From the NCBI RefSeq assembly GCF_008386235.1, contig NZ_CP040671.1, positions 1,738,001 through 1,802,000 of the forward strand: a stretch of 64,000 bases of DNA, written 5' to 3'. Source of the DNA: Thermosynechococcus sp. CL-1 (GTDB taxonomy: Bacteria > Cyanobacteriota > Cyanobacteriia > Thermosynechococcales > Thermosynechococcaceae). This document shows positions 21,999 through 27,099 of this stretch, piece by piece. The number at the start of each line of letters is the position of its first letter. Position 1 is the stretch's first letter. The notes beneath the pieces were generated by a model. That model had not been told where the DNA came from and did not search any database. It saw nothing but the letters and a program-made list of their open reading frames with translations. Made by a program: the position numbers and the translations under genes.

Positions 21999-22391
21999 AT
22001 GCCGCCGCGACGCACCCGTAGCCAAGTCATTATTCTCGATGCCCTTAGAGCCAGTGGCCGAGCGCTCTCGGCACAGGAACTATTTTTGGAACTACGGCAG
22101 CGGCAAACTCCCCTAGGACTGGCAACGGTTTATCGCACCCTCGATAGTCTGCGCATCAATGGTGAGGTGCAAGCACGGGCGTTGCCCAGTGGCGAATTGG
22201 TCTATAGCCTCGTGCAGCAGGATCAACACTACCTCACCTGTTTGCACTGTGGGGCATCGATTCAGATTAACTGCTGCCCAGTCCAGCACTTAGAAGCTGA
22301 GCTACAACAGTCCTACCATTTTGAGATTTTCTACCATACCCTTGAGTTTTTCGGTCTTTGTGCCAAGTGCCAAGTGATGGCGCAGCGCTGA
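21999..22391 (+). CDS. Fur-family metalloregulator, probably Zur-like
   Basis: A 130-residue Fur-family repressor. The winged-helix part (residues about 8-65) has SAQELFLELRQRQTPLGLATVYRTLDSL, and the C-terminal dimer domain has two CxxC pairs (CLHC and CAKC) that bind structural zinc, with HYLTCLHCG and HTLEFFGLC. The short N-terminus and the YHTLEFFGLCxxC ending resemble cyanobacterial Zur rather than iron-sensing Fur or PerR, but this is inference. The start ATG lacks a strong ribosome site. The downstream glycosidase frame overlaps its end if an upstream start is used; no regulatory link is shown. Confidence 0.82.
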   Translation: MPPRRTRSQVIILDALRASGRALSAQELFLELRQRQTPLGLATVYRTLDSLRINGEVQARALPSGELVYSLVQQDQHYLTCLHCGASIQINCCPVQHLEAELQQSYHFEIFYHTLEFFGLCAKCQVMAQR

Positions 22392-22429
22392 AGCGGTATT
22401 CTGGATCAGGCGCGTCTTCGGAAAGTGGT

Positions 22430-24787
22430 GTGATTGAATTTGCCAACTGTACCTGGACACGGGCGATCGCCCAAGGCTGGGAAAATCCCTATCGCGTTCG
22501 CTATGCCAGCAATTTAGACGATGGCCCTTGGCATGGCATGCCCCTTGGTGGCTTTGGCGCGGGCTGTATTGGTCGTTCCTCGGCCGGGGATTTTAATTTC
22601 TGGCATATTGACGGCGGAGAGCACATTTTTGGCACCCTAGCGGCCTGTCAATTTAGTCTTTTTGAGCAGGGAGAGCAGACACAGGCCTACGCCCTAGGGA
22701 CTCCCCCTAACGATGGCCGCCTCAGCACTTGGCAATGGTATCCGGCTGGCAAAGGTATCTACGCTGCCCGCTATCCCCGCAGTTGGTTTGTCTATGAGGG
22801 GGTCTTTAGCGCCCAGATCACCTGCGAACAGTTTTCACCGATTCTGCCCCACAACTACCAAGAAACCAGTTACCCCGTGGCGGTGTTTCTGTGGACGTTT
22901 AGCAATCCCACGGATCAGCCCCTCACCCTCAGCTTGATGTTCTCGTGGCAAAATACCGTCGGTTGGTTTCGCAATACCACCCCTTCCTCTGCCATTGAAA
23001 TCCGCGATGATGGCAGCCCCGTCTATACCTACACGCCCCCTTGGGGTCAAAGTGACGGCAATTTTAATGAACTGATTCAAACAGAGTCCTACCAAGGTTG
23101 GCGACTGCGCCGTACGCCCCACCCGAACCCACCCCAAGAAGGCGATGGTGAATGGGCAGCATTGGTTCCCACAGGCCTTGGTGAGTTTTTTGGCTGTAGT
23201 CGCTGGCAGCCAGAGGGGGATGGGGCACAACTGTGGCAATCATTTTCGGGGGATGGTTCCCTACCAATTGTCAATGATCCAACCCCAGCGGCAGCGGGAG
23301 AACAGGTGGCCGCCGCCTTTGCGGTGCGCTTTGCCTTGGCACCTAGGGAAACAAAACAAATTCCCGTGGTCTTGGCGTGGGACTTTCCTGTGACTGAGTT
23401 TGGCAAGGGCGTGATCTATTACCGTCGCTACACGGATTTTTGCGATCGCAGTGGCACCAACGCTATCACCCTTGCCGCCCGTGGCCTAGAGCATTACAAG
23501 GAATGGCAACAGCAGATTCGCACTTGGCAAGCGCCAATTCTCACCCACCCCGATTGGCCCGACTGGTTCAAGATGGCACTGTGTAATGAGCTATACGTCC
23601 TCAGTAGTGGTGGAACGCTTTGGAGTGCCGCCAGCGATCGCGACCCCGTGGGGCAGTTCGCCGTTCTAGAATGCCTTGACTACCGCTGGTATGAAAGTCT
23701 GGATGTGCGGCTCTATGGCTCCTTTGCCCTGCTGCAACTGTGGCCAGAACTGGAAAAATCCGTAATGCGTGCCTTTGCGCGGGCGATTCCCACCGCTGAT
23801 CCCACCCGGAGAATCATTGGCTACTTCTATCGCGGTGACCCCGAAACCGCCTACAAAGCGCCTCGTAAACTGGCCAATGCCGTGCCCCACGATCTCGGTG
23901 CGCCCAATGAGCATCCTTGGGAAAGGACGAACTACACTGCTTATCAGGACTGCAATCTTTGGAAGGATTTAGCTTCTGACTTTGTCCTTTTGGTCTATCG
24001 CGACTTTTTGTTTACTGGGCAGACGGATCTCGACTTTGCCCGTGAGTGCTGGCCGGCTGTGGTGGCCGCCTTGGCCTATTTGAAACAATTTGACCACGAT
24101 GGCGATGGCCTGCCAGAAAATGGCGGTGCCCCGGATCAAACCTACGATGACTGGAAGCTACAGGGGGTCAGTGCCTACTGTGGTGGCTTGTGGTTGGCAG
24201 CCCTCGAGGCAGCGATCGCCCTCGGCACGATTCTCCAACAACCGCAGGTGGAGACCTACCGCCAGTGGCTCAAGCAAGCTCGCCCCCGCTACCATCAACT
24301 GCTGTGGAATGGCGAGTACTACCGTCTTGATACCGGCAGTGGTTCCGATGTGATCATGGCGGATCAACTGTGTGGCCAGTTCTATGCCCAACTCTTGGGT
24401 TTGGCGGATATTGTGCCCCCAGACTGTTGCGATCGCGCCCTGCGGAAAATTTACGACACCTGTTTTCTCGAATTTCACAATGGCCAGTTGGGTGCCGCCA
24501 ATGGTCTTTTGCCCAATGGTCAACCCGAAAACCCCCACGCTACCCATCCCCTTGAAGTCTGGACAGGGATTAACTTTGGCTTGGCCGCCTTTTTGTGGCA
24601 GCGGGGAATGACCCACGAAGCATGGCGCTTAGCCGAGGTGGTGGTCCGGCAAATCTACGAGAATGGTCTGCAATTTCGTACACCGGAGGCGATTACGGCC
24701 AATGGGACGTTCCGTGCCTGTATGTATCTACGCCCCATGGCCATCTGGGCACTGGCTCTCGTCAGTCAGGGATCACGATCCACCTAA
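22430..24787 (+). CDS. GH116 family glycosidase (GBA2-like)
   Basis: A 785-residue protein from GTG at 22430 (the frame is open back to 22358). It matches family GH116, which includes human non-lysosomal glucosylceramidase GBA2 and archaeal and bacterial beta-glucosidases and beta-xylosidases. The N-terminal beta domain starts with GMPLGGFGAGCIGRSSAGDF. The (alpha/alpha)6 domain has NELYVLSSGGTLW near residue 389, whose Glu matches the catalytic nucleophile, and GGAPDQTYDDWKLQG near residue 570, whose Asp matches the acid/base. Thus both catalytic residues seem kept. No signal peptide is visible, so it is probably cytoplasmic. GGAAAG precedes the GTG by 4 bases. The natural substrate could be a glucolipid or small beta-glucoside. 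Confidence 0.85.
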   Translation: MIEFANCTWTRAIAQGWENPYRVRYASNLDDGPWHGMPLGGFGAGCIGRSSAGDFNFWHIDGGEHIFGTLAACQFSLFEQGEQTQAYALGTPPNDGRLSTWQWYPAGKGIYAARYPRSWFVYEGVFSAQITCEQFSPILPHNYQETSYPVAVFLWTFSNPTDQPLTLSLMFSWQNTVGWFRNTTPSSAIEIRDDGSPVYTYTPPWGQSDGNFNELIQTESYQGWRLRRTPHPNPPQEGDGEWAALVPTGLGEFFGCSRWQPEGDGAQLWQSFSGDGSLPIVNDPTPAAAGEQVAAAFAVRFALAPRETKQIPVVLAWDFPVTEFGKGVIYYRRYTDFCDRSGTNAITLAARGLEHYKEWQQQIRTWQAPILTHPDWPDWFKMALCNELYVLSSGGTLWSAASDRDPVGQFAVLECLDYRWYESLDVRLYGSFALLQLWPELEKSVMRAFARAIPTADPTRRIIGYFYRGDPETAYKAPRKLANAVPHDLGAPNEHPWERTNYTAYQDCNLWKDLASDFVLLVYRDFLFTGQTDLDFARECWPAVVAALAYLKQFDHDGDGLPENGGAPDQTYDDWKLQGVSAYCGGLWLAALEAAIALGTILQQPQVETYRQWLKQARPRYHQLLWNGEYYRLDTGSGSDVIMADQLCGQFYAQLLGLADIVPPDCCDRALRKIYDTCFLEFHNGQLGAANGLLPNGQPENPHATHPLEVWTGINFGLAAFLWQRGMTHEAWRLAEVVVRQIYENGLQFRTPEAITANGTFRACMYLRPMAIWALALVSQGSRST

Positions 24788-24904: not shown

Positions 24905-25354
24905 ATGGATAACCTCAGCCAACGTTACCTACGTCTGTGCCAAGCCTATAGCCAACTGGCAGAACGCTATACCAAACTCGATATTGACCACATGACGCTG
25001 CGGGAAAAGCTCGTCCCCTTTTTGATGGCCTTCAAATATTACAAGCAGATGAGTGAGCAACTCGTTGCTGAAAAAGAAGCCCTGCAGCGGGAACTCAACG
25101 ACCTGCGCGATCGCTACCAGTTGCTCGTGAGTCAAAACGGCAATGCCCCCATCAATGAAGAACTGCTCAGTGCCCTTGCTGAAGCAGAGGAGCAGATGGG
25201 ACTCATTGAAGAAACCCTCAAAGAACAGGAGGCTGACCCGGATCCCAACCTGCTTCCCATTGAAAAGCAATTGCTGGAAGAATATACAAAGGGGAGTGGT
25301 GATTTTCAAGCGCTGCTTCCACAATCGTCGAGTCACTCCGGGGTTACTGCCTAG
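24905..25354 (+). CDS. Coiled-coil protein of unknown function
   Basis: A 149-residue soluble protein, predicted mostly alpha-helical. Residues about 5-30 (YLRLCQAYSQLAERYTKLDI) and 55-80 (EQLVAEKEALQRELNDLRDR) show heptad patterns, and the C-terminal third is acidic. I recognise no enzymatic motif. Its TAG stop is immediately followed by the ATG of the histidine kinase, with no bases between, so the two are probably co-translated. A role as scaffold or partner of the kinase is inference from position only. Confidence 0.75.
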   Translation: MDNLSQRYLRLCQAYSQLAERYTKLDIDHMTLREKLVPFLMAFKYYKQMSEQLVAEKEALQRELNDLRDRYQLLVSQNGNAPINEELLSALAEAEEQMGLIEETLKEQEADPDPNLLPIEKQLLEEYTKGSGDFQALLPQSSSHSGVTA

Positions 25355-26512
25355 ATGCTCTGGCCAGCCAGTGAAGAATTTGCTGCCCTCTGTCGTACCC
25401 AATTAGAACTCGTTGTTAACAGCTTGGGTGCCTCTTCACTGGCGGTCTATCTGAGTGAAACCCTCAACGACTCCCCCTCATGGTCTCCCGTTGCTGTCTA
25501 TCCAGAGGCGGCACCCCCCCTGAGCTTACCGTTTCCCCCAACCCTACCACCGCCAACGCAAGCAGCAGAGACCCCGTTAAGCCATCGCCCTCAACAGGTC
25601 GTCTCGTCCTTGGCCAATCAACTGATCCTGCCCCTGATGTACCAAAATTGGGTCTTGGGGGTACTGGTGGCGCAGCGGCAACACCGTCCTTGGCTGGCGG
25701 CAGAGCAGGCACAATTGCAACAGGTGGCGCAAACACTGGCGATCGCCTGCGTCTTGGATCAACGGCAACAATGGCTCAGCCACTCCCCTGCTAGCACACT
25801 GGATCAGCAGCAACAGCGCTTTGATGACCTGCTCCATCAACTGCGCAATCCCGTGGCCGCCATTCGCACCTTTGTCAAGCTCCTGCTCAAACGGTTGGAA
25901 CCCGATCACCAGGGGCGCCCCCTCGCCGAAGGCATTGCCAAGGAAACAGAGCGGCTCATGGCATTGTTGGAGGACTATCGCCAACAGGGCAACGATATTC
26001 CCGTCCTCACGGGCAGCCAGCCCCTACCCCTTGCGGGTAAACCCCTCGATCTAGTTGAAACCCTCTCGCCGCTGATCACCGCCGCCCAAGCCCGTGCGGA
26101 AATGGAAGGCAAAACCTTTGTGGTCGAAATGCCACCCCAACTCCCCCCGATCTGGCTAGAGGAACGGGTGCTGCCGGAGGTGGTGGGGAATCTGCTAGAC
26201 AATGCCTTTAAGTACACCCCCAAAGGCGGCACGATTGGTCTGCACTTGACCCCCACAGCTGCAGGTTTAGAGTTAACGGTTTGGGATACCGGCTGTGGAA
26301 TTCCTCTGGAGGTGCAGCCGCGCCTCTTTGAACGGGGCTACCGCGGGATTCAAGCCGACAGTGGGATTGAGGGCAGTGGCCTTGGCTTAGCAATTGCTCA
26401 AGATCTGCTGCGTCCCTATGGTCTCAGTCTGCGGGTCACCAGTCCCTACGAGGGCGATCGCGGTACGGCCTTTACGTTGACAATTCCCTTGCCAATGAAG
26501 GTGGAACGATGA
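25355..26512 (+). CDS. Soluble histidine kinase with GAF-like sensor
   Basis: A 385-residue sensor kinase without membrane segments. Residues about 5-140 look like a GAF-type sensory domain. The phospho-acceptor H-box is HQLRNPVAAIRTF with His161; the ATPase domain has the N-box EVVGNLLDNAFKYTPKGG, the G1 box VWDTGCGIPLE and the G2 box GSGLGLAIAQDLL. No response regulator is adjacent, as is common in cyanobacteria. It overlaps the next gene by four bases (ATGA), and the coiled-coil gene ends right before it, so the three likely form one unit. The signal is unknown. Confidence 0.9.
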   Translation: MLWPASEEFAALCRTQLELVVNSLGASSLAVYLSETLNDSPSWSPVAVYPEAAPPLSLPFPPTLPPPTQAAETPLSHRPQQVVSSLANQLILPLMYQNWVLGVLVAQRQHRPWLAAEQAQLQQVAQTLAIACVLDQRQQWLSHSPASTLDQQQQRFDDLLHQLRNPVAAIRTFVKLLLKRLEPDHQGRPLAEGIAKETERLMALLEDYRQQGNDIPVLTGSQPLPLAGKPLDLVETLSPLITAAQARAEMEGKTFVVEMPPQLPPIWLEERVLPEVVGNLLDNAFKYTPKGGTIGLHLTPTAAGLELTVWDTGCGIPLEVQPRLFERGYRGIQADSGIEGSGLGLAIAQDLLRPYGLSLRVTSPYEGDRGTAFTLTIPLPMKVER

Positions 26513-27099
26513 GTGCTCTGAAACAGCGCCTCGCCAAAATCAGCAGTCAGGGGCATCAATTCCTCGTGGCGATCTTTGCCCTACCCCTATTGATCTCCGC
26601 CACAACGGGAATCGCCCATCGTCTTGGACGCAGTTGGTTTGGGCTATCTAAAGACTTTGGGCGGGCGATGATGACCCTTCATGAAGGCCGCTATCTGGGG
26701 GAATGGGGCGTGCCGCTCTATGTGTTGGTCATTGGTTTAGGCTTGCTGGGAATCATTGCCACGGGTTTGGGTCTCCTGTGGGGGCGATCGCTGCCGGCGC
26801 AGTGGTCAGCACGGCGGCTGCATCATCTTTTGGCTGCCATTGCAGCATTGCCCTTGCTCGTGAGTGCCACGACGGGAATGGCCTATCGCCTTGGCCGCAA
26901 CTGGTTTGGCCTCTCCAAAGAACAGGCGGCGATTTTCCTGAGCCTGCATCAGGGAACCTATTGGGGCGAGGTGGGGCGTCCCTTCTATGTTCTTTTGGTG
27001 GGTCTGAGTTTGCTGACACTTCTGGCCACGGGACTCTCGATGCTGACTCTCCTGCGACGGCTGCCCCACTGGCGTCCTAGGGTGACCCCGGAGACCTAG
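26509..27099 (+). CDS. PepSY-like membrane protein with internal duplication
   Basis: A 196-residue membrane protein made of two similar halves. Residues about 14-75 and 104-165 align: FLVAIFALPLLISATTGIAH versus LLAAIAALPLLVSATTGMAY, then RLGRSWFGLSK versus RLGRNWFGLSK, and LHEGRYLGEWG versus LHQGTYWGEVG. Each half has two membrane helices, giving four in total. Histidines recur at matching places (HQF/HHL and LHEG/LHQG). The pattern resembles the membrane part of PepSY-associated proteins. ATG overlaps the kinase stop by four bases, which suggests a membrane partner for the otherwise soluble kinase; that is inference. Confidence 0.78.
   Translation: MSALKQRLAKISSQGHQFLVAIFALPLLISATTGIAHRLGRSWFGLSKDFGRAMMTLHEGRYLGEWGVPLYVLVIGLGLLGIIATGLGLLWGRSLPAQWSARRLHHLLAAIAALPLLVSATTGMAYRLGRNWFGLSKEQAAIFLSLHQGTYWGEVGRPFYVLLVGLSLLTLLATGLSMLTLLRRLPHWRPRVTPET

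Follow-up and report, generated by a model that had tools for sequence, protein, structure and literature searches.

Organisation of the locus

The window analysed here is a stretch of 64,000 nucleotides, positions 1,738,001-1,802,000 of the closed 2.65-Mb genome of Thermosynechococcus sp. CL-1. Within it, a touching set of three open reading frames on the forward strand encodes an acidic, coiled-coil-like protein, a histidine kinase and a membrane protein (Table 1). The stop codon of the first gene is followed directly by the ATG of the kinase, with 0 nt between them, and the kinase and membrane protein genes overlap by 4 nt through a common ATGA, which is the compact arrangement given in the preliminary description. 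Touching genes are frequent in bacteria; what goes beyond chance is not the touching itself, but the retention of these junctions at large synonymous divergence. The 0-nt junction is present in all 11 genomes of the genus and the 4-nt overlap in 9 of the 11, with a 2-nt gap in one of the others (G173) and an ambiguous start in the second (G160). Within the genus, dN/dS is approximately 0.07-0.17 for all three genes, indicating purifying selection, and the three are probably co-transcribed as a single operon.

In every one of the 11 genus genomes the psaM gene adjoins the set in the same orientation; it is probably a neighbour rather than a part of the touching set. It so happens that psaM stands here beside a member of a kinase family tied to photosystem stoichiometry. 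Upstream, a gene for a Fur-family-like regulator (21999-22391) overlaps a large gene (22358-24787) that belongs to the conserved block around the kinase gene, and whose GH116-like label comes from reading its sequence only.

Table 1. Features of the three-gene set and its downstream neighbour, in positions of the window
Feature	Position	Strand	Basis or remark
Coiled-coil-like acidic protein, 149 aa	24905..25354	+	presumed tlr0194 equivalent, by position
Hik2 (Chloroplast Sensor Kinase homologue; tlr0195 orthologue), 385 aa	25355..26512	+	Pfam domains, tlr0195 primers
GAF domain of Hik2, residues 11-131, with Cys13	25385..25747	+	Pfam, alignment
Phospho-acceptor His161 codon (LLHQLRNP; H185 in Synechocystis Hik2)	25835..25837	+	alignment
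HATPase_c catalytic domain with N279/N283, DTGCG and GSGLG boxes	26171..26494	+	Pfam, alignment
Minimal PepSY_TM protein, 196 aa	26509..27099	+	presumed tlr0196 equivalent, by position
His16 codon, start of TM1	26554..26556	+	predicted cytoplasmic-side haem ligand, pairs with His105; topology by homology
His58 codon (LHEGRYLG before TM2)	26680..26682	+	predicted outer/lumenal-side haem ligand, pairs with His147
His105 codon, start of TM3	26821..26823	+	predicted cytoplasmic-side haem ligand
His147 codon (LHQGTYWG before TM4)	26947..26949	+	predicted outer/lumenal-side haem ligand
psaM, photosystem I subunit PsaM, 31 aa	27205..27300	+	105 nt downstream of the membrane protein gene

The kinase is Hik2

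Domains and published primers identify the kinase as Hik2, a known redox sensor also called the cyanobacterial Chloroplast Sensor Kinase (CSK) and related to a chloroplast sensor of plants. GAF, HisKA and HATPase_c domains are all found in it by Pfam; the H-box histidine, His161, is invariant among 14 aligned Hik2 sequences and corresponds to the phospho-acceptor H185 of Synechocystis Hik2 (PMC4751278), and the N, G1 and G2 boxes are present (N279, N283; D311/G313/G315; G340/G342/G344). The Hik2 gene of T. elongatus BP-1 (tlr0195) was cloned by Ibrahim et al. (PMC5904244), who printed the primers; of these, the forward one fits the window at 25355 without a mismatch, and the other three show 2, 5 and 1. 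At one locus of another genome (L012 of G029), whose kinase is 91% identical to that of the window, there is no mismatch in any of the four. Primer match and domain content together rule out an undescribed kinase. The undescribed signalling module that had been proposed for these genes survives, therefore, only in part: its kinase was already known, and what is new is the membrane protein as a candidate Hik2 partner.

Hik2 is the only close relative of its kind in the genome, the next match (L002) having a different, hydrophobic N-terminus, and the window kinase falls far below the cut-offs of family models for NblS, SasA and similar kinases. These and other conserved cyanobacterial kinases have the histidine kinase core in common with it, but NblS sits in the membrane and has other sensor domains, and SasA carries a KaiB-like domain. 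The maximum 19-residue hydropathy of the window kinase is 1.19, so there is no evident membrane helix and the protein appears to be soluble, just as first described. Equally accurate was the remark that no response regulator lies nearby, since the nearest of the 33 receiver domains in the genome is approximately 107 kb away; candidate LuxR-type regulators number four in the genome as a whole. This is normal for Hik2; its known targets, Rre1 and RppA, are encoded elsewhere, the latter being phosphorylated by Hik2 in Synechocystis (PMC13421787). A study of thermophilic cyanobacteria (PMC9953108) describes most of their two-component genes as orphans and reports Hik2 homologues in every strain it covered apart from Thermostichus.

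Both Cys13 and Cys132 are present in the window kinase. The former corresponds by its N-terminal position to C19, the proposed [3Fe-4S] ligand of Synechocystis Hik2 (PMC6949291), the Synechocystis sequence itself not being in our alignment. The described Hik2/CSK proteins (slr1147, Synpcc7942_0453, tlr0195) likewise have a soluble GAF-DHp-CA architecture, an H-box histidine, no paired response regulator and a cysteine at the proposed ligand position, but the window Hik2 differs from these descriptions in being encoded in a touching set with coiled-coil and PepSY_TM genes. The portions of the Hik2 literature cited here contain no mention of such a set. As a separate observation, Hik2 has alanine at the proposed ligand position in most genomes of one genome family (f23; L028, L030-L037), so that not every Hik2 protein has this ligand.

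A membrane protein of the minimal PepSY_TM type

There are four hydrophobic segments in the membrane protein, arranged as two homologous halves of two helices each. Aligned with each other, the halves score 238 over 75 residues, whereas none of 500 shuffles preserving the hydrophobic pattern scored above 65, and this bears out the internal duplication initially noticed. The Pfam model of PepSY_TM, PF03929, matches the protein with an E-value of 3e-6 and 27.6 bits, slightly short of the cut-off of 28.8, and matches a paralogue in the same genome with 41.0 bits, which is over the cut-off. Four histidines (H16, H58, H105 and H147) are invariant in 23 family members; the full-length PepSY_TM proteins of cyanobacteria likewise show four histidines that do not vary, at matching places relative to the helices. 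When profiles of the minimal and full-length proteins are compared with hhalign (Prob 93, E 3.4e-7), H105 and H147 are paired with invariant histidines, while H16 and H58 correspond by motif and order. One of the full-length cyanobacterial proteins matches FoxB (PDB 7abw; E 0.0015), which holds two haems through conserved histidines on either side of the membrane (PMC13038864).

Given that the invariant histidines match those of full-length PepSY_TM proteins, and given the haems of FoxB, a di-haem cytochrome is the best reading; the protein is probably a minimal bis-His di-haem b cytochrome of the PepSY_TM type, with one haem near each membrane face. The preliminary description had offered haem or redox sensing among its examples, and a predicted haem or redox nature receives good support from homology. 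Solved structures gave no direct match to the membrane protein, and the viral and plasmid collections contained no relatives; a single-sequence structure model (mean pLDDT 60.9, pTM 0.30) was too poor to address haem geometry.

FoxB, CrpH and other PepSY_TM proteins, which are ferrisiderophore or proposed copper reductases, likewise have four helices, four conserved histidines, matching motifs and two predicted haems. However, at 196 aa the window protein has no PepSY domains, its outer loops being only approximately 30-35 residues long, so that nothing like the large outer PepSY cavity of FoxB is found, and its halves are closely similar to each other. Its setting differs too, since FoxB and CrpH-type genes adjoin a TonB-dependent transporter, whereas the window gene adjoins a sensor kinase.

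The same minimal membrane family accompanies two-component genes in a second setting. In the CL-1 genome, an operon at approximately 574800-578600 of C1 (C1:574810; L200:4790-8584) encodes an RppA-like regulator, an RppB-like kinase, a PiuC-type dioxygenase and a minimal PepSY_TM protein that is a paralogue of the one in the window. Similar operons occur in several other cyanobacteria, with the PepSY_TM relative last, a PiuC/YbiX-type Fe2+-dependent dioxygenase and sometimes an RTX-repeat protein. The RppA and RppB models are the best matches for the operon genes, yet they score below their curated cut-offs. Unlike the hik2 set, these operons combine an RppB-like kinase with a paired RppA-like regulator and the dioxygenase. 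Since Hik2 phosphorylates RppA in Synechocystis, the two settings of the membrane family may meet in one regulatory circuit.

Phylogenetic distribution of the gene set

Adjacency of all three genes is found in 11 of 11 genomes of the genus, and it is in this genus only that the membrane protein gene adjoins hik2. In G056 the coiled-coil gene and hik2 are kept together and the membrane protein gene lies on another contig. A search across the whole family (29 genomes) gave the same pattern of adjacency, and in other families neither coiled coil-Hik2 adjacency nor Hik2-membrane protein adjacency was seen. Poor conservation of adjacency, which the initial reading of the locus named as counting against it, is thus found in part: the pairing of membrane protein and Hik2 is limited to one genus, but that of coiled coil and Hik2 extends to three. 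In most Hik2-bearing cyanobacteria the membrane protein finds no match over its full (double) length, which rules it out as a component of Hik2 sensing in general. The gene set is an elaboration, particular to this lineage, of a sensor that was already known.

Those membrane proteins that are linked to Hik2 group together in a single clade (support 100/99), whose sister in G056 is unlinked, and the link therefore most simply arose once. In the most diverged members of the genus (G125 and G087), dS is approximately 1.7-2.7 for the kinase and membrane protein genes and outer synteny is broken, and a block stays intact that runs from the large upstream gene through the coiled-coil, hik2 and membrane protein genes to psaM and a hypothetical gene. 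As the block has kept psaM and the large upstream gene equally well, adjacency within the genus says little about function, and retention alone does not prove a partnership between Hik2 and the membrane protein.

As judged from its sequence, the first protein of the set is plausibly an acidic coiled coil. Neither Pfam nor NCBIfam has a model for its family. A profile search found homologues in 41 of 242 genomes of the class, and in 13 genomes, from three genera, the gene adjoins hik2; in G056 and G104 the two are separated by gaps of 1 and 14 nt respectively and the flanking genes are unrelated. Among the loci examined outside the three genera, the gene was not adjacent to hik2, homologues in other families adjoining, for example, rpl27/thiG, DUF3611 or fructosamine kinase genes. 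We rejected the idea that the coiled coil partners Hik2 in general, because these homologues lie elsewhere beside unrelated genes. Many other cyanobacteria have a different conserved neighbour of Hik2, a protein of 105-175 aa with the motif RNEHTTDRYFWAEKGLFGAQYVEENHFLFPSLR whose gene is divergently oriented (L204-L207, L212, L213, L215, L216); it does not lie beside Hik2 in Thermosynechococcus.

A possible role beside Hik2

Our preferred explanation overall, to which we give about an even chance, is that the Hik2 gene is packed together with two helper genes in what is likely to be one transcription unit. From what has been described of the Hik2 family, the kinase would read the redox state of the plastoquinone pool through a [3Fe-4S] cluster borne by its GAF domain and sense Na+ through its kinase core, autophosphorylate on the H-box histidine and pass the phosphate to Rre1 and RppA. 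The membrane protein, as a minimal PepSY_TM cytochrome with two b haems, one per membrane face, would feed or drain electrons at the membrane. That it would thereby set the redox state read by Hik2, or report to it, is a tentative proposal that we think rather doubtful, and we would say much the same of the coiled-coil protein binding Hik2 and influencing its oligomer or location, as the tether of the preliminary description would, although the two genes adjoin in three genera with unrelated flanks. Direct input from the membrane protein into Hik2 is a plausible but hypothetical mechanism. No expression or interaction data were found, and a literature search on tlr0194 and tlr0196 yielded no paper.

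These helper roles must be weighed against the possibility, which we rate somewhat short of even, that Hik2 works alone, as it does in other cyanobacteria, and that a membrane protein of iron, siderophore or haem redox metabolism came to lie behind hik2 in a single event at the root of the genus and remained there because short blocks of genes persist in this small genome, with no physical or signalling link between the two. The single clade of Hik2-linked copies, pointing to one event, with its unlinked sister in G056, is what this would predict, as is the equal retention of psaM and the large upstream gene, and the company that the paralogues keep with PiuC fits as well. It sits less easily with coupling at the level of coding sequence, mostly as a 4-nt overlap, that has been kept over large synonymous divergence, and paralogues elsewhere also accompany two-component kinases. 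The operon with RppA-like regulator, RppB-like kinase and PiuC/YbiX-type dioxygenase can be read in another way, in that the membrane protein could be an effector regulated by Hik2 in iron or redox homeostasis and merely co-transcribed with it. Phosphotransfer from Hik2 to RppA is documented (PMC13421787), but no evidence for a promoter or operator emerged, a consensus promoter and terminator scan finding no convincing site upstream of the set, and we regard this as an unlikely account, if one worth keeping in mind.

The boldest alternative would make Thermosynechococcus Hik2 a three-protein redox sensor, in which the plastoquinone pool, or lumenal or periplasmic reductants, would come to equilibrium with the di-haem protein, which in turn shuttles electrons to and from the [3Fe-4S] cluster of Hik2, while the coiled coil docks the kinase at the membrane. 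The predicted haem pairs near each membrane face and the cysteine in the position of the Fe-S ligand would suit such a relay, and association with a membrane protein has been suggested as an option for soluble CSK (PMC6949291). Against it, the membrane protein is absent beside Hik2 outside the genus, and in vitro the Hik2 of Synechocystis reacts to redox agents with no partner present (PMC6949291, PMC13421787); we consider the relay improbable.

How a soluble CSK reads a plastoquinone signal in the membrane is a question raised in accounts of this kinase (PMC6949291, PMC13421787), and as one of these names association with a membrane protein, the operon puts forward a candidate partner that would hold for this lineage at most. 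With Hik2 coupled at the coding level to a likely di-haem protein, the genus offers a concrete partner hypothesis that can be tested, and the fact that T. elongatus Hik2 has already been purified would aid such tests. The gene set also draws attention to a minimal PepSY_TM family, devoid of PepSY domains, that keeps company with two-component genes among cyanobacteria, and it gives a first functional lead for the unnamed coiled-coil family. In one genome of 8.1 Mb (G187), that family is represented by three distant copies, on contigs C1, C4 and C6, each matched in two pieces (loci L219, L222 and L224-L227).
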